Below are positions 869 to 25,290 of a DNA stretch of 29,797 bases, in pieces; position 1 is the stretch's first letter, and every line of letters begins with the position of its first letter. The translations under genes and the position numbers were made by a program. The stretch is from positions 1 to 29,797 of IMG/VR virus record IMGVR_UViG_3300028925_010097, one strand, 5' to 3'. Source of the DNA: a virus. The notes under the pieces are model-generated. The model did no database searches, was not told the origin of the DNA, and was given only the letters and a program-made list of their open reading frames with translations.

Positions 869-3800
869 CTACCTCTGGTTCCGCTCGGCTCGATCCTCAT
901 CATAACCGCGCAGCAGGTCCATATAGCTCCACCCAGCCTCCTCATCCATTCTGGCAATCCACCCATCGAGGGTGCGGTTAACCTGCGCTGCCGGTAAGCC
1001 CAGCAGGATGCCGAAGGTTGTGATCAGGGGCTTTATCGTCTTCAAGTCCATCAGCTCCGCTTCGTTCTCACTGTCGGACACATCAGCCAGCCGCTGTATC
1101 CCACGCGCCACGTTCTCACCGAACATCGAGAGCGGGGTCGGGCTGTAGCCAAATTTCTTTTCAATGGCACCGGAGACAAGATCGCGTCCCAGCGGCACCC
1201 CCGCCGTTGCTGCTAACAACGTCTGCTTGGCGAGGTACTTAATCATGCCTTCCTTGTCTTCGTCTTCCGGTTCAAAGTCCGGCAACTCACCACGGATCAA
1301 CGCCATGCCCAGCTCTTGCAACGTAAGCACAACAAAGATGCGACCCATGCCGCGCAGGATACCCATCGGCCCGTGGTTACCCACGACCTCTTGACCAATC
1401 TGCCGCGTGATGCCGTACAGCACTGAGAAGAAACTGTAGAACATGGTGACGGCACGTCGGAGACCACGATGCCGCTGCATCGCAGATAAATCTTTTAAGC
1501 CGCCGCCGGACTGGCTGATGCGAACAACGCGGTCGGCGTAATTCACTGCGCCCTGCACGTCAGCCGGGTCGGCGCGTAACGCTCTACTGTAAGCTGCCGT
1601 CCAGGCGGGCATGTCAACCGTGTACAGCTGCGCACCTGCGATCATCATCATGATGCCCTGCTGCGTGCGCGACCGGACGTCCTTCTTACCAGCGACCTTG
1701 CGCAAACCTGAACGAAGTTCTCTGTCGGTGTTCTTCAACCGGAAGCGCATCTCTTTCGACAGTGCAAACACCGCCTGCCAGTGACGAGGGTCGGTCGACT
1801 TAACAATACCGTAAGACATATCGCGCAGCGTGTGCGCATGCCCCGACAGGCCGTAAGTGTCATCTGCAGTCAGTCGATCATACGTCGTGAGCAGACCTAG
1901 CGTCTGAGCGCCCAGCGTGCTGTATGACAGTCCGAGTACGGCGATGGTTGTGTTTGTTGTTAGCGTGCCGACGATGCTGTCCGCCCAGTCTGCAGCAGGT
2001 TTGTCGTGGCCGTTCGCAGCCAGCGCACCGACCCACTCATCCAACTCTTTAGCATACGCTTTGCCGACCTTGCCTTCGAGGTCTTTGCGCAACTCTGGAT
2101 CGGTTAGGATGCGCTTCGCGTTCTGCACTGCAGGATAATGTGTGAGGTAATGGATCGCCATGTCGAACGAGTTACCAATTTTCGTAACATCGAGCGACAC
2201 AGGTGCGACGAAAGCAGAGCGGCCTTTGGTCATCGATGAGTTAACAGCCGCACGTCCCACGTTCTGCTGCATCATCTCTAATGCTGTCAGAGCTTCGAGG
2301 CGTGATCCTTTGCCGTCTTCGTTCAGTGTGGTGTCGTAGAACATTGGGAAGTAACCACCGCTGCGCTCGATGCCGCCAATCATAAGCGTGCGCGGCTCAA
2401 CCCTATCTGGACTGACGCCGTTCTCTCTGCGATATATGCTCTCGATGGTCGGCCACAATTTTTCCGAGTGATCCCACACAGCTTGAATTAAATCGCCCTC
2501 TTCTTTACTGAGCTGCTCAAGGGCCTCTGTCACTAAGTCTTCGCTGATATTCCAGCCAATGGTTTTGTAACCCTCTACAAGCTTGTGCAGGTTGCTCTCG
2601 TTACCGCTGTTCATTGCCAGCATGATGAGGTTGCCCCGTGTGAAGGGCCGTCCGTCACCAAGGTCGCCCACGTTGACGGGATGGCCCATTGATTTACGGA
2701 TACTGGTCGGCAGCACCATGAAGTGTGCACTGAGGAGATCGGTGACCTGCTGTGTCAGAACTTGCTTGTCGCCCTCCGCGTTAGCAAACGGCTGGTATAT
2801 CGTCTGATGCCACACACCCATCGGGCTGCCATCGATAGCTTCGAGTAACTGCTCCACCTTGAGCAGGCTTGCATCCATCTTAGCAGCGAACCCAGCCACC
2901 CCATACGCGAGACCTGCGTTGTCGGTGCTTACAAACTTATCACGCAGCTTGTTGACCAGCGCACGATCCTGGCCGATTAACGCAGCACGCATCCTCGCGA
3001 TGGTAAGCTGCCGGTCCATGCGCTCCTGGCCTACCAGCAGTTTCTTTTTATTCTTACCCTGCTTCTCCATCTGCTTGACGCTGTCGTGCAGCTCTTTGAA
3101 CTGCCCGACAGACAGCTCACGGATGTGCTCCTTCGTGTTCTCATCAAACAGCCACGTCGGGATGTCAAAGATGGCTGCCTCGTCGGTTTCCTGTGCAATG
3201 ATGAAATCCATGATCGCTTTTAATTCTTCCTTGGCTTTTGACGCCTCACTCTTGCGCGGTCCAAAATCGTATGCGTCCACCAGACGACGGATGTTGTCGA
3301 CGTAGTCAGCATCGATGCCGGGGTACTTCTTGCGCGTGCTCTTAAAGCCGCGCATGTAGCTCATGTTTTTGGCGAAGGTCTTCTGGAACTTCATCGCCTC
3401 TGTTGCCATGTAATGGTTCAGCAGCCGTTGGAACTGGTGCGCGTATGCGTCAGCACGATCACCTTTGCGCAGTGCCGTTCCCGCCTTCTGTGCATGACGC
3501 CGCTCCGCCGACAGGAACTTGGTTTGCCGTGCCTCGGTGACAGTGCTCTCTAAGATGCGCTGCTGTGCGTATGCTTTTAAAAACTTAGGGTTCAGCGCAG
3601 TCTCGGTTGTGCGTAACGCAGCCAGCTCGGCGGCCATAACTTTCGCGACCGGGTCGTTGTGAATGCTGGCGATGGCCTCGATCTCCGCGTCTTGATCCAT
3701 GTCGCCGTGCGCCTGCTTCATACGGTTGTCTAACTCAGCCTCGACAGCTGCGTTGTACTCAACTACGTTAAGCAACGCGTCGATCATTGCAGGGGCGTCA

Positions 3801-6800
3801 CCAAAACCGAACGCGGCTGCAACCGCGCTCGGAGATGACGTGTCACCTTCTTGCTTCCCAATTTCGTAGACTGCCCGGTTAACGCGTGGCAGATCGGCTA
3901 GTGTGACACCTTCCGGCAACAACGCTTCCAGTGCGCTCTTCTCCATGCGGTTGAGCAGCAGCTCCGCAGGTAACGCGGACCCATCGGCGAGACCACCTTG
4001 AGTGACGGCCCATAACAGCTGGTACACAGGCTGGTGCGCGATCTTGGTGCGCACGTCGTCGCGCAGCGCCTCGCGCTCTGTCTTCCACCACTTCAGGCGT
4101 TCGCGCTCGATCTCTTTAATATGCTTGGCGAGTTGATTTGCTTTGCTGTCTTCCTTCGACCGGGCGATGGCAGCTTGGTGTTCGACGAACTGCTTCTTCG
4201 TCATACCCGCTTCCTGCGCGGTGCCGAATAAACCTGTCAGCTCAAATTGACTGGCGGCAAGTTCAATCTCATCATCGGTAGCCAACATCTTGTCGAGTAC
4301 CTTCACAACCTCTGGCGAGAACTGCACGTCCATCCCAATCATGCGCCGGTACACAGACTTGATCCATTGAGCAAACGCGATGAAAGCATCTGCTAATTGA
4401 ATGGACGGTGCGTGCCCGGTGCTGAAATAATTTTCGACGCCGCGTGCAAACTGCTCATGCATGGCGACAGACAAGTACCGCTCTGTACCTTCGCCCCGCA
4501 AGTTGCCGGTCGCTATGAATGACTTGACCTGCCCCTCAGTCATCCCCTGCAGTACTGCAACAGACGCCATGTCTTTGGCTTTGCGTGCACGCACGATGGC
4601 TTCTTCTTTTATGTTGGGTGCATTGTCGCCCCACCACTTACGAACGGTGAGCCAGTCCTTTTCAAAGGTGTCTTTGAAACGCGCAGCGTCATCCTTGAGC
4701 TGCTCCAACCAGAAGTGCCCGCTCTCATGCAGGAACGTCGTCGGGTCACCCTTCTCAAATATCTGGATAAGGTTGATAGGAGCACCGTTCTCATCCGGCA
4801 TTAAGTCGGATGGAGTGAAGCTACCACGCGGTGCGTCACCCTTGCCCGTCTCCTGATTGAATACTCTCTGCTCTAATTCACTCGCAGGCTGGTGTATGCG
4901 CAGCTCCTCTTGCCGTGCCGCTAACTCTTTGCCTGAGTACCTTTCGACAATGGCTTCAAACGCCTCTCGCCTATCCCGAACCCAGCTTTGTAAATCGGGT
5001 CGTCCGCTGGTATCGATGGTATCGAGGACCACCTGTCCGTCGGGGTCTGCGCCCCAGTCGTGGACTGGGCCGTACTGACCTTCTGATCCGAACTTGGCAA
5101 GTCCGGTGATGCCGATTGCTTGGCCATCTGTGGCCTCCATTTCTTGTATGCCCGCCATGAAGTCTTGGTCGTCCACGAAGGGCAAGCCTGTTTCGTCATC
5201 CCTGAAGTTGATGACTACGATCTCACCATTTATCTTACTATACCCTGCGTCTTCACCCAAGTGTTTTATCAGTATCTGAAAGAAGGCTTCTTCGGTCGCC
5301 TGATCCAGCGGTGCCTTAAATGAGATACGAACACCTCTGGCCAGATTGCCACCGCCGACTGTCCACGTCGCCAAGTCGTCGAGCTTCTCTTGAATACCGG
5401 CCTTGAGGGTGCCGTCCTTTTTGGTGGATGCCTCCAGCTTCTCCCGGCGTGCGACGATCTCGGCTTCCGCCTGCGCCTGCGTCGGGAACGACCGCACCGA
5501 TTTACCTTGGCTGTTTTTGACCGAGTAGTCCTTGGTGAAATCCATCTTGCTCTCGGCGCGGAACACAGGGACGGCATCTTGCTTGAAGATGTACTGGATG
5601 GCTCGGGCGTAATCCAAGGCCGTCTGGTTGTCGAACGCGCCAGCCGGTTTGATCGGGATCAACGTCGTGATGGCGTTGGTGTTTATATCTCCGGCGTAGC
5701 CGCCGGTTCCCAGCTCGGCCAGATTGAGCGGCACGCCTAGAAGGTCGGCAAGTAGGTCATGCCCGCTGTCGTCGATCAGCAGGCTGATGGCCTCTTCTGT
5801 AAACTGTTGCCGGATGTCGGGGTCAGCCGACGTTATGTCGAGGTTGAGGGATGCGCTCGGTATGGCCTCCCATGTGATGTGCTGTGCGATCCTGTTCAGC
5901 ATGGTGCCGAACGACCCCTTGGCAGTCTCGACTGATTTCTGCACGTCTTCGTCGGCAGCCGCCAATGCGTGCTTCCGCCAGATCATCATGTGCTTACGTT
6001 TGTTTGGTGTGTTCTGCGCGGGTGCCGCCCACTTGCCTGTCTCCTCGTCATACTTCGAGAAGCCCTTCTTGACGCTCTCAGCTATGGTCGCCTTTTTGAC
6101 CGACGGCACTTCGTAGCGTGCCTTGATGGCAGTCCACAACGCGGCCTGCACTTGATGCGGCAACCAGCGTCGCTCACCGTCTGCCAGCTCTGCGTTCAGA
6201 ACACCGGCAAGCCGCCTGATCTCATTCTCTGAGAAGGAGTATTTCCCCGCCAACCCTTCGCTGTTACCGGCACTATCCAACTCATACCCCAGAGCGCGGA
6301 GAACCCACAGGTCGACGGTTGCCCTGTCGATCTGAGAAGTAACGTCTTCGGGGATAGCCAGAGAAGCCAACGAGGTCGGGTCGGCTTTTGTCAGCAGCTC
6401 CTTCATCAAATTCAGGTAGAACGAGTTGACCTTACGGCCCCCCCAATCTTTGCCAGTCTCTAGCCACGCCTGCGCCTTATTATTTTGGTTATCTGTTTTG
6501 ACCGTGATCGGCTCACCGTTCTTCCACTGGGTGTACGCCTTGATGGCGAAGCCGGTGTTTGGAAAGACACCCGTCTGTGGAGAGTAGATGGCCAGCAGGC
6601 CGATGAGCCGCTCCGCGTCGGCAAAATTACCGTTGGTTATGCGCAGCACTTCGAGTGCGCTATCCTCATACCAGAACCTACCGGGTAGCCCTTCACGGGT
6701 CAGCCCGGCCAGCAGCTTGCGCAGCCTGCCGAGGCCGCCAGCGTTCTTCACCCACTCAGGAACGCCAATAAATTTTCCAGCCTTCGTCTTCGTTGGTTTC

Positions 6801-9800
6801 AGCGCACGCCAGCGGGCGTCGTCGACTTCACCATCTGAGCTGCCCTTCAGTTCGTTCACAGGCACTTCCTGTCCGCCGGTCAATGTGCCGGACTGGAACA
6901 GGAAGTCTTGCGCCTCGCCTTTGACAGCGTTGCGGGCAAGGATCAATGGGCCGACCTGTATTGCTTCGGTGGCCGACAGGATAGGTTCCCCGGTTGCCCT
7001 GTCGTAAAAGAATGAATGGCGTTGCGGATCATAACCAACCTGCGTCCACTCAGGATCGTTCAGCACTTCTTGAGAGCGGGTGACGAGAGCCTCGACGTCT
7101 GCTGACTGGAAGTCTCCGTCTACCCGTGCAAACGGAGCTTTGGCTGCGCCCTGCGAAACACCAGCGGCCTTCTCCTGCTCCTTACCTGTCGGCTCGAAGT
7201 CTACGTTGGTTATATGGACGGCAGCCTCGTGTACGTTGCCGACCGGCGTGCCGTGGATCGTAGGCACCCATACTCCGTGGTTTGTATATGCAGGGATGTC
7301 CAGACGGATGCCAACACGGTGCCCCACTGGTATCTTCTTAGACTTGCCTAGTTTCGTCTTCTTGTTCTTGTCTAGGGCGTCGCGCATCTCTTTGGTCGTA
7401 GATGGCTCAGGGACGGCCTCGAACGGAAGGACGGTCTTCAGCTTATCTACTTCACGCTGGTACTCCTCGGCAGTGATCTCACCAGCCTGCCGTTTGGCGG
7501 CTGCCTCTGCCAGACCCGGCACTGACTTGGTGACATCTTTTAAATCTAGTTTTGTGCGGTCCACTTGGTTGAAGCTGACGGTCGCGGCGTTGCGCGTCGT
7601 GTCCGCCGGTCCGCGTATCTGCAGGTTGTCCTCCAAGAATAAGTCTAGTGCGCTCACCTGTGCACCCGTCGCCTTGGTGGCGCGTACTGCACGCACGAGA
7701 TACCGCTGTGCGGTCACCATCGCCATGAAGTGAGCCCGCTCTCCGCTGTACTTATCTAAGGCGACCAGTTGTGCGGTGACCTCAGTACGGATTGCTTCAG
7801 CGTCGCTGACAAACACTTCGAGGTCGGCGTCTTCCACACCGAGTGCCGTCGTGATCCGCTCCATCGCTTTCGTTTCAAGCTCGGCTATGATCTGCGCTTC
7901 ACCCCCGGCCTCTTTAAACTCTTTAGCCTCCGCCGGGGAGAAGCCGTCCAGCTCGGTGCGCGTGTGCTCAATGAGAGCGTCGAAGCCCTCCTTGGTCAGG
8001 ATATGCCGAACATAACTCTCGACACTGATCTGCACGTCCAGCCCCTCGTTGGCCGCAATCTGCACCTCGGCCTCTGTAAGGCCCAGCGTCTCAATCACGT
8101 TGCCGTCAGGGTCGTCTTGATTAAACTTAATAATCTCGTCGGCGGCGATAAAGATTTCTTCGACGCCTTCCGTCTTCAGCTTCTCACCTAAAACTTCGGA
8201 CGCAGTCTTCAGCGCCTCGACATCGATGTCCTTAACGTGGCCGGACAGCTCCTTGCTGCCTTTGAGAAACGCTATAGATTTTTCCCTGTCCCGTTTGTCG
8301 GCTGCGTCGTTCGTCGTCGCGATGAGAATATCGGCCATGACTTGGCCGGGATGCGCTTCCGCCAGCCCTTCTAAGAATGCTTCAGACAGAACGATCTTAC
8401 CGTCGGAGAATAACTGCGCGGCCAGCTCTGATGTAAAACCTTCTGCAGCCTGGAACGGCGTCTGCAGTGCCACGTTAGCCAAGCCGCTGGATGCCAGCCG
8501 CAGGCGTGCAACGCCCAAGCTTACCCCGGCACCCAGCGCAATTGGTATGGCCCTGCCCTTCAAGAAACTGATGGATCGCTTCTGTACCTCTTCCCTCTTT
8601 ATAAATTCAGCAGCGCCTTCGGGCGTCAGTACATCGATGCCGAACTCATCTTTAATAAATTTAGCGGGTAATTGAAACCGCTCTTGTATGAATGCAGACG
8701 ACACCATCACACCGCCACCGACGAGAGGCCGACCGGTTAGCCGAGAGCTGGCAACAGACAATCCGATGGGGATCGACTGCTCCACTAGTACTTCTGTTAT
8801 AAATTCTAATGCAGATACTGGATTGCGTGCGATGGCTTGGAAAAATAGCGAACCCACGTTGAAGAAGCCCTGCTCTTTACCCATGCGCTCGACGTCTTCC
8901 TGGAAGGGTTTAGCTGCGTCAGAGAACCCCAGCTTCGACATGCTTTTGTATATCTCAGCGGCCCGCATAATGTTGGTGACGGCGCCGCGCTTCATGGCGT
9001 CCGCCTCACTCTCGGTGGTGGTTACTTTATCAAACACACGCGATGCAAAGTCGAACATAAAACCAGGGGTATTGGATATTGCATTAAACGCAGGGTGCAG
9101 AAAGCTCTCCTTGTTGCTGGGTTTATCCCTACCAAAGTTGTCTTCGAGCGAAGACATAAATATTTCTTGTATGCTACGACCGCTGTCTGCAGCTGTCGAC
9201 ATGACGTCCTCGACGTCATTGACGATAGAGTTGATCTGCATGCGCAGAGCGGATCGGTGTATGGACCGTCCTAAGCCCTGACGGATCGACACAGGCTCCG
9301 GCACGAGAGGCACAGCACGCAGCGGTACTTTGAACGGCAGCATGATCTCAATACCAAGCCGTTCGATGGCCTGTTCGCTTGCAGCCATGACCGGTATCTG
9401 TTTTTGCAGTACGGCGGCGGCCTCGATGTTCTCCGCCATCTTCTTACGCGTCACTCGCGCCTTCTCAAGTGCCAGCACCATCTCGTCCCGGTCGAGCGCC
9501 TTCTGCAGCGTCTCCGGTGGCATCGCATCGACTATGGGTTGCGGCAGGTTCATCGTCTCGGCAACGAGCTTACGTTTTGCAACGTCAGTGATCGCGAGGC
9601 TATCAACAAGATTGAGATTGTGCAGCACGTCGGTGGTGCGCGGGTCTAGTGGTTTACGCCCTTCCTTCTCGGCGTCACTGCCCGGTAACGGTGTACCAAA
9701 CACACTGAACTGGTTGTGATCGACACGCGGGTTGCGAGGCTGCGGTGGAGCGTTCGACAGCTCAGTCTCTTCCGGCTCGGTGCCGATGTCTAACGCATCC

Positions 9801-9898
9801 ACAGCACTGCGCGGCGTCGTCACAGGCGAACTTACTGGGGTCAGCTCTGTGGCGTCGTCGTCATTAGCGGGGTCGATGATTAAACCTTCGAGCGCCAT
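869..9898 (-). CDS. Giant internal virion/ejection protein, gp16 position, with polyvalent-protein modules and an HExxH metallopeptidase-like domain
   Basis: At 3009 residues this is by far the largest gene, about twice T7 gp16, and closer to the giant virion proteins of Bcep22-like podoviruses. The N-terminal ~90 residues are acidic and Pro-rich. Visible modules: an alpha-helical region with Gly/Ala-rich hydrophobic stretches (~350-500); a conserved-looking block VESYVRHILTKEGFDAL (~622-662); a module at ~858-988 with GIRLDIPAY, WTQVGYDPQRHSFFYDR and VGPLILARN; and a domain at ~1050-1270 with IYSPQTGVFPNTGFA and ATVDLWVLRALGY, which I tentatively match to DUF7178. A zincin-like domain has HESGH at 1724-1728, with Glu candidates in HEQFARGVENYF at 1814-1825. 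A helical C-terminal ~500 residues with hydrophobic patches resembles the C-terminus of other phage giant proteins. The ATG overlaps the upstream stop (TAATG). I saw no lytic transglycosylase motif. A role in DNA ejection and cleavage of host proteins is inferred from position and domains. Confidence 0.8.
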   Translation of the reverse strand: MALEGLIIDPANDDDATELTPVSSPVTTPRSAVDALDIGTEPEETELSNAPPQPRNPRVDHNQFSVFGTPLPGSDAEKEGRKPLDPRTTDVLHNLNLVDSLAITDVAKRKLVAETMNLPQPIVDAMPPETLQKALDRDEMVLALEKARVTRKKMAENIEAAAVLQKQIPVMAASEQAIERLGIEIMLPFKVPLRAVPLVPEPVSIRQGLGRSIHRSALRMQINSIVNDVEDVMSTAADSGRSIQEIFMSSLEDNFGRDKPSNKESFLHPAFNAISNTPGFMFDFASRVFDKVTTTESEADAMKRGAVTNIMRAAEIYKSMSKLGFSDAAKPFQEDVERMGKEQGFFNVGSLFFQAIARNPVSALEFITEVLVEQSIPIGLSVASSRLTGRPLVGGGVMVSSAFIQERFQLPAKFIKDEFGIDVLTPEGAAEFIKREEVQKRSISFLKGRAIPIALGAGVSLGVARLRLASSGLANVALQTPFQAAEGFTSELAAQLFSDGKIVLSEAFLEGLAEAHPGQVMADILIATTNDAADKRDREKSIAFLKGSKELSGHVKDIDVEALKTASEVLGEKLKTEGVEEIFIAADEIIKFNQDDPDGNVIETLGLTEAEVQIAANEGLDVQISVESYVRHILTKEGFDALIEHTRTELDGFSPAEAKEFKEAGGEAQIIAELETKAMERITTALGVEDADLEVFVSDAEAIRTEVTAQLVALDKYSGERAHFMAMVTAQRYLVRAVRATKATGAQVSALDLFLEDNLQIRGPADTTRNAATVSFNQVDRTKLDLKDVTKSVPGLAEAAAKRQAGEITAEEYQREVDKLKTVLPFEAVPEPSTTKEMRDALDKNKKTKLGKSKKIPVGHRVGIRLDIPAYTNHGVWVPTIHGTPVGNVHEAAVHITNVDFEPTGKEQEKAAGVSQGAAKAPFARVDGDFQSADVEALVTRSQEVLNDPEWTQVGYDPQRHSFFYDRATGEPILSATEAIQVGPLILARNAVKGEAQDFLFQSGTLTGGQEVPVNELKGSSDGEVDDARWRALKPTKTKAGKFIGVPEWVKNAGGLGRLRKLLAGLTREGLPGRFWYEDSALEVLRITNGNFADAERLIGLLAIYSPQTGVFPNTGFAIKAYTQWKNGEPITVKTDNQNNKAQAWLETGKDWGGRKVNSFYLNLMKELLTKADPTSLASLAIPEDVTSQIDRATVDLWVLRALGYELDSAGNSEGLAGKYSFSENEIRRLAGVLNAELADGERRWLPHQVQAALWTAIKARYEVPSVKKATIAESVKKGFSKYDEETGKWAAPAQNTPNKRKHMMIWRKHALAAADEDVQKSVETAKGSFGTMLNRIAQHITWEAIPSASLNLDITSADPDIRQQFTEEAISLLIDDSGHDLLADLLGVPLNLAELGTGGYAGDINTNAITTLIPIKPAGAFDNQTALDYARAIQYIFKQDAVPVFRAESKMDFTKDYSVKNSQGKSVRSFPTQAQAEAEIVARREKLEASTKKDGTLKAGIQEKLDDLATWTVGGGNLARGVRISFKAPLDQATEEAFFQILIKHLGEDAGYSKINGEIVVINFRDDETGLPFVDDQDFMAGIQEMEATDGQAIGITGLAKFGSEGQYGPVHDWGADPDGQVVLDTIDTSGRPDLQSWVRDRREAFEAIVERYSGKELAARQEELRIHQPASELEQRVFNQETGKGDAPRGSFTPSDLMPDENGAPINLIQIFEKGDPTTFLHESGHFWLEQLKDDAARFKDTFEKDWLTVRKWWGDNAPNIKEEAIVRARKAKDMASVAVLQGMTEGQVKSFIATGNLRGEGTERYLSVAMHEQFARGVENYFSTGHAPSIQLADAFIAFAQWIKSVYRRMIGMDVQFSPEVVKVLDKMLATDDEIELAASQFELTGLFGTAQEAGMTKKQFVEHQAAIARSKEDSKANQLAKHIKEIERERLKWWKTEREALRDDVRTKIAHQPVYQLLWAVTQGGLADGSALPAELLLNRMEKSALEALLPEGVTLADLPRVNRAVYEIGKQEGDTSSPSAVAAAFGFGDAPAMIDALLNVVEYNAAVEAELDNRMKQAHGDMDQDAEIEAIASIHNDPVAKVMAAELAALRTTETALNPKFLKAYAQQRILESTVTEARQTKFLSAERRHAQKAGTALRKGDRADAYAHQFQRLLNHYMATEAMKFQKTFAKNMSYMRGFKSTRKKYPGIDADYVDNIRRLVDAYDFGPRKSEASKAKEELKAIMDFIIAQETDEAAIFDIPTWLFDENTKEHIRELSVGQFKELHDSVKQMEKQGKNKKKLLVGQERMDRQLTIARMRAALIGQDRALVNKLRDKFVSTDNAGLAYGVAGFAAKMDASLLKVEQLLEAIDGSPMGVWHQTIYQPFANAEGDKQVLTQQVTDLLSAHFMVLPTSIRKSMGHPVNVGDLGDGRPFTRGNLIMLAMNSGNESNLHKLVEGYKTIGWNISEDLVTEALEQLSKEEGDLIQAVWDHSEKLWPTIESIYRRENGVSPDRVEPRTLMIGGIERSGGYFPMFYDTTLNEDGKGSRLEALTALEMMQQNVGRAAVNSSMTKGRSAFVAPVSLDVTKIGNSFDMAIHYLTHYPAVQNAKRILTDPELRKDLEGKVGKAYAKELDEWVGALAANGHDKPAADWADSIVGTLTTNTTIAVLGLSYSTLGAQTLGLLTTYDRLTADDTYGLSGHAHTLRDMSYGIVKSTDPRHWQAVFALSKEMRFRLKNTDRELRSGLRKVAGKKDVRSRTQQGIMMMIAGAQLYTVDMPAWTAAYSRALRADPADVQGAVNYADRVVRISQSGGGLKDLSAMQRHRGLRRAVTMFYSFFSVLYGITRQIGQEVVGNHGPMGILRGMGRIFVVLTLQELGMALIRGELPDFEPEDEDKEGMIKYLAKQTLLAATAGVPLGRDLVSGAIEKKFGYSPTPLSMFGENVARGIQRLADVSDSENEAELMDLKTIKPLITTFGILLGLPAAQVNRTLDGWIARMDEEAGWSYMDLLRGYDEDRAERNQR

Positions 9899-17442: not shown

Positions 17443-18444
17443 TTAGCTGACCGTAGCTTCATCGGGGCGCAACGCGTCGCAACGACGGATTGGAATACCG
17501 CCCCAGCTCGTCTGCATCGTTCCACCAACCATGTCTACCGACAGCGTCGAAGAGGACACTGCGCTGGACGTCTGACGCCGCAGCATGGATAAGATGCTCT
17601 TATCCATATACCAAGAGCAACGTCCTGCAGCCGTCGAAGGCAGCTCGGTCCACGCTTGGTGCATTAGGTCATTGAGATCAGCAGAAGTACCAGTAGCCGC
17701 TACTAAAAGTAGCGAACGGTCGATGTTCGCAATACGCACAGCGTAACGCCAATCGCGAACCGTAAGGCCCACGTCCCAGCGATAGTGTGTGCGGAAAGCT
17801 TGCATACGGCCATTTGAACCATCTGCGTCTTCTATGGTTACTTCGCCAAGGTCGCGCTGTTGGATACCCGCTTTGGAGCCTTTGGGGATAATCCCGTGGC
17901 ACGTTTGTGGGGACCAGCAGACTAACCAAATCGAAGCGTTGTCTGAACCGCTGCCGCCGCCATTAATGATGTTGTCGCCGTTGGCTGCAGACAGAGAGTT
18001 GTAGCGGGGGGCCAGACCAGTAAACTCTTCTGGTGCTGTGCTCTCATCTCCGTAGAAGAGAGTAGCCGCGAACTCTTGGTTCATGCCCTCGATGTGAGGG
18101 CGATCTTCTTGAAGACGGAAGGCGGCTGGGTCACCGGCCATCCCAACGAGGGCGGCGTCGACTTCAGCGTAGTCTTCCATCATGCCGCAATTGTCTGTGA
18201 CCTGTACCGCTCGACTTTTAGTCGGCTGCACGCCACCATACATTTTACGCCATGTCGGGCTTGGTAAACCCGAACGGATCGATGAGCGGTTACCTGTCGT
18301 AAGGTTACCTTCTTGCCACGACATATCCGTGAGGATTTCATTTGTCGCGTTTAGAATTTCGACCACGTCGGCGACGGAGCCGTCGGGGTCGGTGACCTTA
18401 GCCAGGTCGGCCAGGGTCGGGTTTGTAACACTTAGAGTAGCCAT
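17443..18444 (-). CDS. Major capsid protein, Bbp17-like
   Basis: A 333-residue protein of BPP-1 major-capsid length. The N-terminus (NPTLADLAKVTDPDGSVADVVEILNATNEIL) and the following SWQEGNLTTGNRSSIRSGLPSPTWR are typical of this family. So are YAEVDAALVGMAGDP, the FRLQEDRPHIEGMNQEFAATLFYGDE helix, and a late segment (TELPSTAAGRCSWYMDKSIL) near the C-terminus. The BPP-1 protein has an HK97-like fold with permuted topology; that this protein folds the same way is inferred from family resemblance. An AAGGAGATAACTA-ATG start suggests strong translation. Scaffold lies upstream and the cement protein downstream. Confidence 0.9.
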   Translation of the reverse strand: MATLSVTNPTLADLAKVTDPDGSVADVVEILNATNEILTDMSWQEGNLTTGNRSSIRSGLPSPTWRKMYGGVQPTKSRAVQVTDNCGMMEDYAEVDAALVGMAGDPAAFRLQEDRPHIEGMNQEFAATLFYGDESTAPEEFTGLAPRYNSLSAANGDNIINGGGSGSDNASIWLVCWSPQTCHGIIPKGSKAGIQQRDLGEVTIEDADGSNGRMQAFRTHYRWDVGLTVRDWRYAVRIANIDRSLLLVAATGTSADLNDLMHQAWTELPSTAAGRCSWYMDKSILSMLRRQTSSAVSSSTLSVDMVGGTMQTSWGGIPIRRCDALRPDEATVS

Positions 18445-19191: not shown

Positions 19192-19492
19192 CAAAATGAT
19201 ACTCCTCTAACATTTTTATATACATCTTCGGTGTCTCTCGCCGAATGATGATCTCCAACGCAGAACCAATACTCCGCGCTCCCTCATTAAATGCCGTACT
19301 GTCTTTGTCAGACGGCACATGACTAATCGAATCCTTGTGGCAGGTGCGCCAAATCAAATCGTAAATCCACCGCCTGCCACGGGGCTGCCCCATCAAAGCC
19401 ACAACGTCCTTATCCCGGTCAGCCATGTCTTTCTCAGCTTCGTGGACTTGGTCAGGATCGCTGGCGTCATATAGGTGTACGTTCTTTACCAT
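19184..19492 (-). CDS. Bbp19-like small protein between portal and scaffold
   Basis: A 102-residue protein. The recognisable features are DVVALMGQPRGRRWIYDLIWRTCHK and a later FNEGARSIGSALEIIIRRETPKMYIKMLEEY, which match small phage proteins annotated as Bbp19-like and found beside BPP-1-type portals. In that family a Gly-Arg-Arg-Trp core followed by a helical hairpin is typical; no biochemical function is known to me. The ATG at 19490-19492 shares a base with the portal stop (TGATG), so translation is probably coupled; a TTG one codon earlier is the alternative. A minor head or assembly role is inferred from location only. Confidence 0.72.
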   Translation of the reverse strand: MVKNVHLYDASDPDQVHEAEKDMADRDKDVVALMGQPRGRRWIYDLIWRTCHKDSISHVPSDKDSTAFNEGARSIGSALEIIIRRETPKMYIKMLEEYHFDD

Positions 19493-21228
19493 CAAACTGT
19501 GCTGCCTACGCCTAGTAAATCTGTGAGGGCGTTAGGGTTCTGCGTGTCAGCTTCGGATAATGTCTTCGCTCCTTGAGCTGCTTGAGACGCATGCTCGATC
19601 TGTTGAGCTTGTTGCTGCTGCTGCGCACGCTCCTCGCGCTTCTTCTTGACTGCACCCTTGTCGACGAGCAGGTTAGGTGAGTTGCCGAGGATTTCAGCGT
19701 ATTGCCTGATGCCTTCGTCGAAGTCGATGTTGTCGATGACGTCTTGTTGCACGGCGACTAGGTTACCAGTAAACGCCATTGTGCGCTCGAGAGCCGACGC
19801 TGCAACAGCCTGTTGGGCCTGCGCCAGCAAGCTGACGTACTCTACGCGCAGGTCTTGTCCCTGCAATGCTTCTGGAGGCTCGGGGAGGAGATTGGCTTCC
19901 AGAGCAAATGCAAACACATCGTCCAGCAGCGGATCAAGCAGTTCTGTATTCAACCTTTGTAGAACTGGACCCAACAGTACGAGCTTTTCTTCTTGGCGAA
20001 CAGCCACTTCTGTAGCGGTGATGTTCCTACGGTCTGAGTTGATCATCATCGCGAAGAGGTCTGCGAAGAAGCCGCGTTGGATGCGCTCTTGCACTTCTGC
20101 AATGTCTTGCTGCATCTCACCAAGGCGGGGCGTTACTGTGTACGCGGGCGAGAACCCTTGGCCACCCTGCAACGGATCGACATACGTCGTGCCGCCGGGT
20201 ATCACGGTCGAAGGCTTACCGCGTAACGAAGTTGGAGCAGTCATTGGAGGGTTGACCATCTTGTCGATAGCCTGCGCCTTCCTCTTCTGCTGTTGTTGTA
20301 ATTGTTTGATGTCACCGAGGTTGTCCATGCCGGGAGATCGCCCATAAACATCACCCTGCAGTACATCCCACCGCGGGACGTATGCCGGGAATGTTTTGAA
20401 GCCACCGTTGAACAGCATCTCATCGCCGTCGGCGCCTTGTTCCATGTAGCAACTCTTGATGGGCATATGCTCTGACGTGAAGTTCTTAGGGTCTCGCTCG
20501 GCTTTTCGTCGAGGCTCGATCATATGTATGATTGGCACCAACGCATCATAGTTCTTCTGGTTCCACATATGACGCGTCGCACGACTGACGCCTGTCCAGT
20601 CATCGACGCCACGCTGTCCGTCGATGACAAACTTCTCGACGACTTGGCTGACTGTCATGGTGAATGATCGACCAAGCGTGTCAACCTCGCCTTGCGAGTT
20701 CTCCGCGATGACGTACTCGCCGACCGTGAAGGGCCGGAACCTGATAACGTCGTCTATAGAACGCTGTCGATATAAGGGCGCGGTGCCGAATGCACCCAGC
20801 TCTGAATAAACTGTGAATGCTGAGTTGTAGAAGTTCGACTTCTGTAAGATGCCTCTAATTATACGCTCGACATCAGACAACCACTTCTTAACATCGTGAC
20901 GTTCGTTGGATTCCATATCCTGGGTCGCAAACCTGAACCACGGACGCGCAGGGCTGGTCATGCCGGACATCATACCGGCGGCCATCGTGCGCAGTGCTTG
21001 CGTGCCAGAGCTGTCGATGATCTTCGTCGTGCGCTTCTTGCCCCTGTCGTTCTGTGACGTGAATAGGAAGCGCCCACGGCGCGGTAGCAAGTAGTCGCTA
21101 ATTTCCATCCAGTGATTTCGCCACGACGTGCGATCTTGCTCAAGAGTTGCATAACGACGTAACAGCGTCGCCTTCGTACCGTGAGCGGGCGCGTTGTCGC
21201 TGGCATTACCTGGGTTTATTAATGGCAT
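19492..21228 (-). CDS. Portal (head-tail connector) protein, T7 gp8-like
   Basis: At 578 residues it is close to T7 gp8 (536). The N-terminal part has RYATLEQDRTSWRNHWMEISDYLLPRRGRF, followed by IIDSSGTQALRTMAAGMMSGMTSPARPWFRF, the signature of the podovirus head-to-tail connector family. Further family features are LYRQRSIDDVIRFRPFTVGEYVIAEN, a helical stem/wing region around MDNLGDIKQLQQQQKRKAQAIDKM, and NITATEVAVRQEEK before a Gln-rich C-terminal helix (EERAQQQQQAQQ). Twelve copies should form the channel through which DNA is packaged by the terminase. No Shine-Dalgarno is evident; the upstream small gene ends 7 bp earlier, so coupling is likely. Confidence 0.92.
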   Translation of the reverse strand: MPLINPGNASDNAPAHGTKATLLRRYATLEQDRTSWRNHWMEISDYLLPRRGRFLFTSQNDRGKKRTTKIIDSSGTQALRTMAAGMMSGMTSPARPWFRFATQDMESNERHDVKKWLSDVERIIRGILQKSNFYNSAFTVYSELGAFGTAPLYRQRSIDDVIRFRPFTVGEYVIAENSQGEVDTLGRSFTMTVSQVVEKFVIDGQRGVDDWTGVSRATRHMWNQKNYDALVPIIHMIEPRRKAERDPKNFTSEHMPIKSCYMEQGADGDEMLFNGGFKTFPAYVPRWDVLQGDVYGRSPGMDNLGDIKQLQQQQKRKAQAIDKMVNPPMTAPTSLRGKPSTVIPGGTTYVDPLQGGQGFSPAYTVTPRLGEMQQDIAEVQERIQRGFFADLFAMMINSDRRNITATEVAVRQEEKLVLLGPVLQRLNTELLDPLLDDVFAFALEANLLPEPPEALQGQDLRVEYVSLLAQAQQAVAASALERTMAFTGNLVAVQQDVIDNIDFDEGIRQYAEILGNSPNLLVDKGAVKKKREERAQQQQQAQQIEHASQAAQGAKTLSEADTQNPNALTDLLGVGSTV

Positions 21229-22359: not shown

Positions 22360-23862
22360 CTACCCCATTGGGTCATACTCGCTCACCGTTACAGAGACCT
22401 CCTTGGGATTGTACGGCACTTTCTTCGCCACGACAGGGAATGCAAACGTGATGGCCAGAGCGTCTGCACGGTTAGGCGATGCCAGCCCTCGCTCTTTCAT
22501 GTGCTCTTTGCTTTCGAGCTGCTTCTTACCATCGAGGCGTGGCACCAGCTCGACGCCGGTCAGGTCAGCCTTCATCAGCTCATCGTCCTCAAGGCATCCT
22601 CCCTTCTTCAGCCACTGCTGCATAGATACCCACATCTCGGAACGCTTGTTGATACAGCCTGGATCGTTACTGGCTTCACCGAACCACACGATTTGCCAAT
22701 CCTCTCGGCCCATCGTGTGACCAACGCTTACGATGCCTGTACCGAAGCCGCCGTCAATGAACACGGCATCGGCGTTATGATCATCCTCGAACTGTGCAAT
22801 CAGCTGTGCCATCTGCACGTCGTTATCGTTGAATGAATAAAAACCAAGTATCTTTGCGTTCATGCCTTGTCGCAGATAGATCACGAAGTCGTCGTTCCCT
22901 GTCCATGCTGGGTCGACACCTATGATGGTCGGCGCGAAGTTGTATTCATGTGGCAGCATATCCCGAGCCATCGCTGCCTCGACATCCCTGCTGTTGATGA
23001 ACTGATGCTCCGACGCTGATGGGAACGTGCCGAGCACGCGCACCTTAACGAAGTCACTATCGATGCCATAGTCGTCTATGAGGCGGGTCAAGTACAACTT
23101 GTTTGTGATTGACACGCTGCGGCTATCAATGAACCGCTTAATGAAACTGTGCCGGAACTTGCCGAGCATGTTGTCGTGGAAGCGACCGCTGTTACGCGTT
23201 GGGTTGCCGAAGTCGAACGTCATCGGCTCACCGTCGGTCAGTCCCCCTTCACGCACCTCAAATATTTTATTAGGTATGCCACCTGCTTCATCGAAGAGAT
23301 AATATGATGTGCTGTCGGCCCTATGCTGACCGGCGAACGCCTCGCTGTTTTCTTCTCGGCACGTCTGTCCATCGACACGCCAAGTTTTTGGATGCGCCTT
23401 GTGGTACATGTTGAGTGAGCCGCCGCCGCCTGCGTTCAGCATCCACCAATGCTTGGTCAATGCCATGTCGTGCCACTTGGCCAGCTCGGCAAATGTTTTA
23501 CTGCGCAGCTGCTCGGCGGTGTTAGCTGTGATGGTGCCGACGCTGTTCTTGCGAGTATCAGCAATCCATCTTATGATCCACGCCGACAAGCACGATTTTC
23601 CAATGCCGTGGCCCGAGGCTGTACTAAATTGTATAGGAGCGACGGGGTTGATGCCGTCGAAGCCGCGCTTGGCTACCTCGTTCCCCAGTTCAATGAGAAA
23701 CTCTCGTTGCCAATCATCCGGCCCGTCACGTCCAACGAGTGATCCGTGACCCCAAGGATAACTGATGAGCACATGGCGAAGAGGATCAGCATAGCAAGAA
23801 GCCATCTCTTCGTTGATTTGTTGCTCGACATTGGTGGCCTCACTTAATTGGGTTGTAGTCAT
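22360..23862 (-). CDS. terL: Terminase large subunit (packaging ATPase and nuclease)
   Basis: A 500-residue protein of normal TerL length. The ATPase half shows a Walker A-like loop SGHGIGKS (residues 83-90), a Walker B YYLFDEA (187-193) with catalytic Glu192, and a coupling-motif-like FDFGNPTRNSGRFHD. The RNase H-fold nuclease half has GVDPAW (~315-320), FIDGGFGTG (~366-374) and a late Asp in NRADALAITFAF (~463), giving the three expected acidic metal ligands. It pumps DNA into the procapsid through the portal and cuts the concatemer. Its start lies inside the 70-residue gene upstream (23-bp overlap), with only a weak GAGCGAGA ribosome-binding site, so translation may depend on coupling. Confidence 0.95.
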   Translation of the reverse strand: MTTTQLSEATNVEQQINEEMASCYADPLRHVLISYPWGHGSLVGRDGPDDWQREFLIELGNEVAKRGFDGINPVAPIQFSTASGHGIGKSCLSAWIIRWIADTRKNSVGTITANTAEQLRSKTFAELAKWHDMALTKHWWMLNAGGGGSLNMYHKAHPKTWRVDGQTCREENSEAFAGQHRADSTSYYLFDEAGGIPNKIFEVREGGLTDGEPMTFDFGNPTRNSGRFHDNMLGKFRHSFIKRFIDSRSVSITNKLYLTRLIDDYGIDSDFVKVRVLGTFPSASEHQFINSRDVEAAMARDMLPHEYNFAPTIIGVDPAWTGNDDFVIYLRQGMNAKILGFYSFNDNDVQMAQLIAQFEDDHNADAVFIDGGFGTGIVSVGHTMGREDWQIVWFGEASNDPGCINKRSEMWVSMQQWLKKGGCLEDDELMKADLTGVELVPRLDGKKQLESKEHMKERGLASPNRADALAITFAFPVVAKKVPYNPKEVSVTVSEYDPMG

Positions 23863-24052
23863 GCGTCGTCTCGCTCAATCCCTCGGCTGGTCGACCAATG
23901 CACTCGGCGCGGTCGGTGTACGTTGTCAGTTTCTCGCCGCACGCTTTGCACACCTTCATCGATCCAGCGCCGGGCAACGGTGCACCCCAATCGTGATTGT
24001 GCGACGTATGCGCACCACCCGGTGCCACGCCACTATTCTGCTCCATCCTCAT
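23840..24052 (-). CDS. Small zinc-ribbon-like protein between the terminase genes
   Basis: A 70-residue protein. The centre has MKVCKACGEKLTTYTDRAECIGRP: a CxxC knuckle, then a Cys 14 residues on, with His residues nearby (HTSHNHDW at 16-23), so a small metal-binding fold is plausible. The ATG shares four bases with the TerS stop (ATGA), and the 3' end overlaps the TerL start by 23 bp. The lock-step arrangement suggests the three products are made together. I do not know its function; it may help terminase assembly or be a simple structural zinc protein. The overlaps and the Cys pattern argue that it is a real gene. Confidence 0.66.
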   Translation of the reverse strand: MRMEQNSGVAPGGAHTSHNHDWGAPLPGAGSMKVCKACGEKLTTYTDRAECIGRPAEGLSETTHDYNPIK

Positions 24053-24801
24053 CGCTTGTCCTCCGACACACGCTGACGGCCGCGTGCCAACGCCTCAGTT
24101 AAATCATCGCTATGAATTGTAAGGTCTTGCTTCTCACTCGGATACAAACCGCCGAGCCTACCAATCTCACGCACCGCACCTGTCATAGCACCAGCGTTGC
24201 CAGTCTCCTCGGCAAGGTCTTTCGCCTGCTCCTGCCCCGCCAAGCACCACTCGAGATCGTATTGTGTCTTCTTTATGACCGGTGCACGCAGCTCTGCTAT
24301 CCTTGATACTAACTTGACCTTACGCGTCAGCTTCGCAGACATTTCATTTATGGATTTCTTCGTCGCGTTCTTAGGATTGTACGCGATACGATAGCAGTCC
24401 GATGCGTTACCACTTACACCACCAGCCATGAGCTGGCAGAACTTCTCTTCCTTTGCAGTGAGGTTCACCGACACTGTCTTCTTCGTTGCCTTCACACCCT
24501 CACCACCAACAGATTTGTTCACGAGGTTGTCGAGACCAATCTCCTCGATGACGCGCTTCTCTTCCCTGAGTGCATCGTCTTCAACGTCGTGATGAGATAA
24601 GACAATAGCACCGGGCTGCAATCCTTTATCGCGGATGCTCTTGATGATTTTAAATTTGTCGCTGGTCTCAGCACCGGCCATCTCTTTTGAGACACTGCGG
24701 AAGTGCTGCACCTTGCGGTCGCCGCTGCCCTTGCCAACGTAGAACGGCTGCCCAAATTTGGTCGGGTCGGTCAGCGCGTAAACGTAATGGTGTTTTGCCA
24801 T
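24049..24801 (-). CDS. Terminase small subunit fused to an N-terminal GIY-YIG nuclease domain
   Basis: One uninterrupted frame of 250 residues holds two domains. Residues 1-100 are GIY-YIG-like: YVY (6-8) and YVGKG (21-25), then Arg29, His33, a Glu80/Glu81 candidate in ALREEKRVIEEIG, and a closing DNLVNKSVGGEG. This matches the LEM-3 type (YVY...YVGKGxxxR...H...E...N). Residues 113-180 (NLTAKEEKFCQLMAGGVSGNASDCYRIAY) match the helix-turn-helix DNA-binding part of terminase small subunits. A helical part and acidic C-terminus follow. It sits 9 bp after the resolvase gene and shares ATGA with the next gene. TerS normally recognises pac or cos DNA for TerL; a linked nuclease domain is unusual and could make or shape the initial cut. 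Family calls are strong; the joint role is inference. Confidence 0.86.
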   Translation of the reverse strand: MAKHHYVYALTDPTKFGQPFYVGKGSGDRKVQHFRSVSKEMAGAETSDKFKIIKSIRDKGLQPGAIVLSHHDVEDDALREEKRVIEEIGLDNLVNKSVGGEGVKATKKTVSVNLTAKEEKFCQLMAGGVSGNASDCYRIAYNPKNATKKSINEMSAKLTRKVKLVSRIAELRAPVIKKTQYDLEWCLAGQEQAKDLAEETGNAGAMTGAVREIGRLGGLYPSEKQDLTIHSDDLTEALARGRQRVSEDKR

Positions 24802-24810
24802 CTGTTGTCT

Positions 24811-25290
24811 TTACCCCATCGGGTTGTTGGTGTCTAGATACCACTGCGCCATCAGTGCGGCCTCAGCGACCCCGTCATCGGCAAGCTTATCCCAATAAAA
24901 CCGCGTACCATATATCTCCTGCGCGAGAACGATGCTCTCGTTTTTAATTTTACTAAGACCAAAATGTTTTTTCCAGCGCTGTGGCGTCACCCAATTTACA
25001 ACACGGGCGTGTATCAGTGCGAGGCTCTCAACTGCGCCTGTGTTGCGGCCAAATGAAAAGGAACTGGACACGCCTTGCTTCGGCATAGCGTGCACGCTTT
25101 CCAGTACAGCGACATCGATGCGCGGCACCTCAATGAGCCACATATTTATTTCTCTTGCGTCGACGATCCTCTTTTTACCACACCTGACCGTCGGCATCCT
25201 CATCCCGCTCTCGATGATGTGGCCACTCGTATGTGCCCGGACCAAAACGAGGCCGCCGCTGATTCCGGGGTCGATTCCCAAGATGATCAT
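24811..25290 (-). CDS. RuvC-like Holliday junction resolvase
   Basis: A 159-residue protein with the RuvC/RNase H fold: GIDPG at 5-9 (catalytic Asp7), a central VLESVHAMP with Glu64, a Ser/Phe-rich SSSFSFGRNTGAVE helix (typical of RuvC sFsfGrs/n), VTPQRWKKHFG, and a C-terminal KLADDGVAEAALMAQW with Asp138/Asp139 and Glu143. The four-acid set looks complete. It should cut branched replication or recombination DNA before packaging, and it lies just upstream of the terminase genes, a common place in tailed phages. The ATG is preceded only by a weak GGGG; the start is chosen because MIILGIDPG is the family N-terminus. The upstream 271-bp gap probably carries its promoter. Confidence 0.9.
   Translation of the reverse strand: MIILGIDPGISGGLVLVRAHTSGHIIESGMRMPTVRCGKKRIVDAREINMWLIEVPRIDVAVLESVHAMPKQGVSSSFSFGRNTGAVESLALIHARVVNWVTPQRWKKHFGLSKIKNESIVLAQEIYGTRFYWDKLADDGVAEAALMAQWYLDTNNPMG

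Follow-up and report, generated by a model that had tools for sequence, protein, structure and literature searches.

A podovirus-like phage, one of a group of uncultured tailed phages sharing this trait, encodes, as one protein of 250 aa, a GIY-YIG nuclease domain followed by a complete small terminase (TerS). The window, meaning the whole analysed stretch of an IMG/VR virus record (29,797 bases), carries its terminase, portal and capsid genes on the minus strand, and the fusion gene is one ORF with an ATG start (24049 to 24801, minus strand). Strong purifying selection has long preserved the protein sequence of the nuclease half. Whether the TerS half positions this nuclease at the packaging site, where it would nick or process DNA at initiation, we regard as evenly poised. 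The portal (19492–21228, PF12236) and the major capsid protein (17443–18444, GP7) are also encoded on the minus strand, as is a single ORF of 3009 aa (869–9898), which is very long for such a phage and is possibly an internal virion protein.

The initial annotation had proposed a LEM-3-type GIY-YIG module joined in one frame to a TerS-like helix-turn-helix (HTH), and profile searches recovered both parts. The Pfam family LEM-3_GIY-YIG (PF22945) matched residues 20 to 100 (49.6 bits against a cut-off of 27 bits; 5.5e-13) and the terminase small subunit family phrog_51 matched residues 104 to 188 (7.1e-10), each of them in all eight lineages of the fusion. The LEM-3/CMoRE-like nuclease domain occupies residues 1 to 103 (24493 to 24801, minus strand) and was also matched by the PD-T4-3 profile (2e-11). 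Eight residues (Y6, Y8, Y21, R29, H33, K49, E81 and N95) were invariant across the eight lineages (alignment A2). Among the catalytic residues initially named, Tyr6, Tyr8, Arg29 and His33 are thus retained, and Glu80/81 is narrowed to E81, since position 80 varies. In ANKLE1, Y453, Y486, H498, K519, E551 and N565 were mutated and every mutant was impaired (PMC10287932). The equivalent positions in the fusion, Y8 (with Y6 as an extra tyrosine), Y21, H33, K49, E81 and N95, are all invariant, and the Tyr-His, Lys-Glu and Glu-Asn spacings (12, 32 and 14) equal those of ANKLE1. Judged from these alignments, the GIY-YIG domain is apparently intact at the known catalytic positions. LEM-3 and ANKLE1, which share PF22945 with the fusion, come from animals, carry LEM and ankyrin domains and have branched DNA as their substrate; here, by contrast, the nuclease is joined to a phage TerS.

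The closest solved GIY-YIG domain was that of CMoRE (PD-T4-3), a type IV restriction enzyme of E. coli (PDB 9u75 and 9u7u; 31–34% identity), and a PDB sequence search with the first half of the protein returned CMoRE GIY-YIG proteins. The YxY arrangement is the GIYxY-YIG signature of CMoRE (PMC12923530), and this motif is present in the fusion, in which Y6-V-Y8 ... Y21 aligned to CMoRE Y17, Y19 and Y31. The PD-T4-3 profile covers only its positions 15 to 113 of 256, the remainder of the fusion protein being TerS, and by this comparison the C-terminal 5hmC-sensing domain of CMoRE is absent. CMoRE also possesses an acidic autoinhibitory loop that lies over the active site, and neutralising it (mutant 4A) makes the enzyme toxic to the cell (PMC12923530). 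Most CMoRE members have this feature, but no DDDD-like run was found in the loop in any of the eight lineages of the fusion.

The small terminase region spans approximately residues 113 to 228. It is preceded by a variable Lys-rich linker (residues 104–115; 24457 to 24492, minus strand), which is predicted to be disordered (pLDDT under 50 at residues 102–111) and has a mean identity of 37% across lineages. The predicted DNA-binding HTH and helical oligomerisation core (residues 116–222; 24136 to 24456, minus strand) was assigned from phrog_51 and from the structures 21di, 2cmp and 6w7t, and is followed by a variable C-terminal tail with a conserved GRxR (residues 223–250; 24052 to 24135, minus strand; alignment A2). 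Further matches were to phrog_1595 TerS (residues 113–195, 0.008), to Pam5 TerS in a PDB sequence search with the second half (21di, 9.7e-7) and to Pfam Terminase_2 in five of the eight lineages (best 6e-5), the window not being one of the five. In lambda and P22, TerS binds TerL through its C-terminal region (PMC9611059), and by analogy residues 223–250 may contact TerL. Unfused TerS proteins from Xanthomonas phage Kintu (134 aa), from Klebsiella phages and from bacterial-genome loci, the last encoding a TerS of 130–132 aa and then a TerL-like gene, align from about residue 114 on, which indicates that the GIY-YIG domain has been added to a TerS that is complete without it. Terminase_2 TerS proteins (SPP1-like SF6 G1P, PaP3, Pam5 and epsilon15) resemble the fusion in possessing an HTH and a helical hairpin and in their proximity to TerL. 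Unlike the fusion, in which GIY-YIG precedes the complete TerS, the members seen are about 130–200 aa long and lack a nuclease.

An AlphaFold2 model of the 250-aa protein, of moderate confidence (pLDDT 72.6), predicted three strands with flanking helices at residues 1 to 100, followed by an HTH and then by a long hairpin of helices. With VIA-align, residues 1–96 were matched to CMoRE (9u7u, Z 8.6) and residues 3–102 to the I-TevI catalytic domain (1mk0, Z 8.0), while UvrC scored lower (Z about 6; 1ycz, Z 6.2). Residues 113–173 were matched to the TerS DNA-binding domain of the SPP1-like phage SF6 (2cmp; 55 of 56 residues, rmsd 1.7, Z 7.0), ahead of both PaP3 TerS (6w7t, Z 6.5) and full-length SF6 TerS (3zqq). 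Foldseek searches against the PDB gave weak E-values (best 3.4e-3), and the fold evidence consists of VIA-align and sequence together. Z scores of such size alone are suggestive; joined to the sequence profiles they make the predicted fold assignments convincing.

The TerS half is probably translated only as part of the fused chain. No start codon at the junction was common to all lineages, and in one of them (L004) ATG, GTG and TTG were all absent in-frame from the stretch scanned round the junction. Production of two proteins by internal initiation therefore seems unlikely from the sequences. A second, separate TerS elsewhere in the genome, a possibility raised in the initial annotation, was not found either, as the phrog_51 scan gave a single TerS per record in all seven records searched (the window and six relatives, the records being fragments).

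Scans of viral contigs detected the whole fusion, encoded beside TerL, in 11 IMG/VR contigs. Together with the window, and with near-identical contigs joined, these form eight lineages, of which the seven others show 52–73% identity to the window fusion. The contigs are independent assemblies with the same fused frame. A sequencing frameshift or assembly joint can therefore be rejected, and the fusion is stable, as had been suggested from the window alone. In each relative read whose contig extended far enough the gene order was primase-polymerase, RuvC-like resolvase, fusion, small Cys ORF, TerL and portal. Within the main clade, identity to the window was 83–90% for the GIY-YIG half, 63–66% for TerS, 42–51% for RuvC, 75–80% for TerL and 80% for the portal. 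Distant lineages at times break this ranking; in L009 the GIY-YIG half was 56% identical and TerS 68%.

Synonymous differences per site were near saturation and alike in both halves (0.64 and 0.64 between the window and L002), and synonymous codon identity was equal in the fusion and its neighbour genes (0.51–0.55). Within the main clade the nuclease half is the better conserved of the two although its synonymous sites are near-saturated, which indicates an old, selected domain rather than one inserted recently by homing, since a sweep of that kind would leave low synonymous divergence. We also looked for a conserved DNA element inside the fusion gene, but synonymous conservation did not rise above that elsewhere. 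Trees of both halves agreed on a deep split between L009 plus L024 and the rest, with good support for the GIY-YIG half and moderate support for TerS, so the two halves were probably inherited together. Pairwise identities had hinted at a swap in L009, but this was rejected because the trees group L009 with L024 in both halves.

The large terminase is epsilon15-like (22360 to 23862, minus strand; phrog_2, 5.5e-32, with a match to the Sf6 gp2 profile) and is 44% identical to that of epsilon15 and 54% to that of Ab31. Its motifs are intact in alignment A3 with epsilon15, Ab31 and others, including Walker A (GHGIGKS), Walker B (FDEA) and the nuclease residues D317, D370 and D467. The GIY-YIG domain as a substitute for a lost TerL nuclease was rejected on this ground. 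Unfused TerS proteins are found in phages with related TerL (epsilon15, Ab31 and L012), and since the nuclease aspartates are also kept, the GIY-YIG domain comes on top of the terminase nuclease rather than in its place. A TerL search of the viral contigs with the single window sequence found only three loci. In L009 (2341–3825) and L024 (3178–4677) the nuclease half of TerL was clearly different (GVDVARFGDD and FIDGGGVGGG) from that of the window clade (GVDPAWTGND and FIDGGFGTGI), which suggests an exchange of the TerL C-terminal domain.

Between the fusion and TerL lies a 70-aa Cys-containing ORF (23840 to 24052, minus strand; HxWG ... CxxCGE ... ECxGRP), which is kept in all eight lineages at 56–74% identity, matches no Pfam family and has a weak PHROG match only. 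Directly upstream of the fusion is a RuvC-like Holliday junction resolvase (24811 to 25290, minus strand; phrog_1770, 3.4e-21), kept in all relatives whose contig covers the site and far less conserved (42–52% identity). The HNH families PF01844 and PF13392 were not found in the window record. An HNH_3 nuclease gene directly follows TerL in L002 (7781–8320) and occupies the same place in L003; it was seen only in these two near-identical relatives and is probably a homing gene.

We found no description of a GIY-YIG and TerS fusion in the open-access literature searched. Phage records, plasmids, genome contigs and a sample of 754 genomes from two bacterial classes yielded no fusion beyond the present clade, and none was present in the related phages inspected. 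Matches in the 754 genomes covered the GIY-YIG half or the TerS half, never both. The 35 GIY-YIG matches in genome contigs, whose full sequences were judged by eye, showed no apparent TerS-like C-terminus, and an Erwinia phage protein aligning over residues 1–175 had no TerS match. These searches rely on similarity to the present family, so that an independent fusion elsewhere could escape them.

We prefer a role in packaging on two grounds: the only TerS found carries the nuclease and is encoded next to TerL, and the HK97 terminase is helped in cos cleavage by an HNH protein, gp74 (PMC9410871). The TerS half would form the usual ring and bind the phage packaging site. Several GIY-YIG domains, on flexible linkers, would then be held on the DNA-binding side of the ring, where they would nick or cut phage DNA at or near the packaging site and so start packaging, working with and not instead of the intact TerL nuclease. 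The fusion would thus do from within TerS what the stand-alone HNH protein does in HK97. In both cases the packaging module encodes a nuclease besides that of TerL, which is intact; gp74, however, is a separate gene with an HNH fold, whereas the window has a GIY-YIG fold inside the TerS chain. That one TerS ring finds the packaging site and, by means of a captured CMoRE/LEM-3-type GIY-YIG domain, also introduces the initiating nick or cut is a tentative proposal that we hold with a little less than even confidence. The retention of the residues tested in ANKLE1, the selection on the nuclease half, the lack of a shared internal start and the probable joint descent of the two halves count in favour of the packaging role. 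Against it, the TerL nuclease is intact and phages with related TerL manage with an unfused TerS, so that in general a further nuclease is dispensable; the fusion gene showed no conserved DNA element above background, and close phage GIY-YIG relatives carry homing-nuclease annotations. The initial annotation had raised the possibility that a homing nuclease became a working part of the packaging motor; a working part agrees with the strong purifying selection, while the nick at pac or cos, like any cutting of phage DNA by the fusion protein, is hypothesised.

The main rival to the packaging role is homing or interference, since nucleases of such kinds gather beside terminase genes. Guided by the DNA binding of TerS, the fused nuclease would cut the terminase region of competitors, thereby spreading its allele or excluding the competitor, with self DNA remaining protected. 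We consider this unlikely, though it has several points in its favour. Homing nuclease is the annotation of the nearest viral GIY-YIG proteins (phrog_314), the HNH_3 gene of L002 and L003 lies just after TerL, and GIY-YIG-type nuclease genes cluster beside phage terminase genes in 35% of T5orf172 neighbourhoods (PMC10448857). The authors of that survey noted that both readings can hold at once (PMC10448857). Phage GIY-YIG homing endonucleases (phrog_314 and phrog_5356) likewise have an N-terminal GIY-YIG domain followed by a further part, but they are free-standing or intron-borne, lack TerS and, as far as seen, are not fixed in a clade in this manner. The fusion shows neither a presence/absence pattern nor recent spread, and is not free-standing but in one frame with TerS. 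It was present in all 11 contigs found, with no empty or free-standing close version in the viral contigs, although with so few contigs rare empty alleles could be missed. The synonymous divergence of its GIY-YIG half is as large as that of its neighbours. Homing nucleases usually decay, but the main clade has kept its GIY-YIG half better than its TerS half.

Two further roles were considered. A nuclease that cuts junctions in the manner of ANKLE1 and LEM-3 could trim branches from the concatemer before TerS hands it to TerL. The Pfam family of the domain is consistent with this, and ANKLE1, the studied animal member of the LEM-3-like family, is specific for branched DNA (PMC7610144, PMC10287932). 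However, the RuvC-like resolvase encoded next door would already serve this purpose, and the closest solved relatives are CMoRE restriction enzymes and not junction resolvases, which makes branch trimming improbable. The same relatives, together with the PD-T4-3/CMoRE defence profile and the shared GIYxY-YIG signature, would fit a restriction-type role in which the domain destroys host or rival phage DNA and TerS merely supplies DNA binding. This we think very improbable, as the modification-sensing domain and the autoinhibitory loop of CMoRE are missing and coupling an unspecific nuclease to a protein with self DNA as its target would put the phage at risk.

TerS is known to recognise DNA and to regulate TerL, in which the enzymatic activities sit (reviewed in PMC9611059). 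This is the arrangement in described terminases, a division of labour that would be called into question by a TerS carrying a selected nuclease of its own. If the packaging role is true, DNA cutting in a headful or cos motor would be divided between TerS and TerL, and a nuclease type of anti-phage defence and homing would have been taken into the packaging machine. The fusion would offer a simple protein for asking what directs the initiating cut to the packaging site, and it could reveal how these phages mark or prepare their DNA for packaging.
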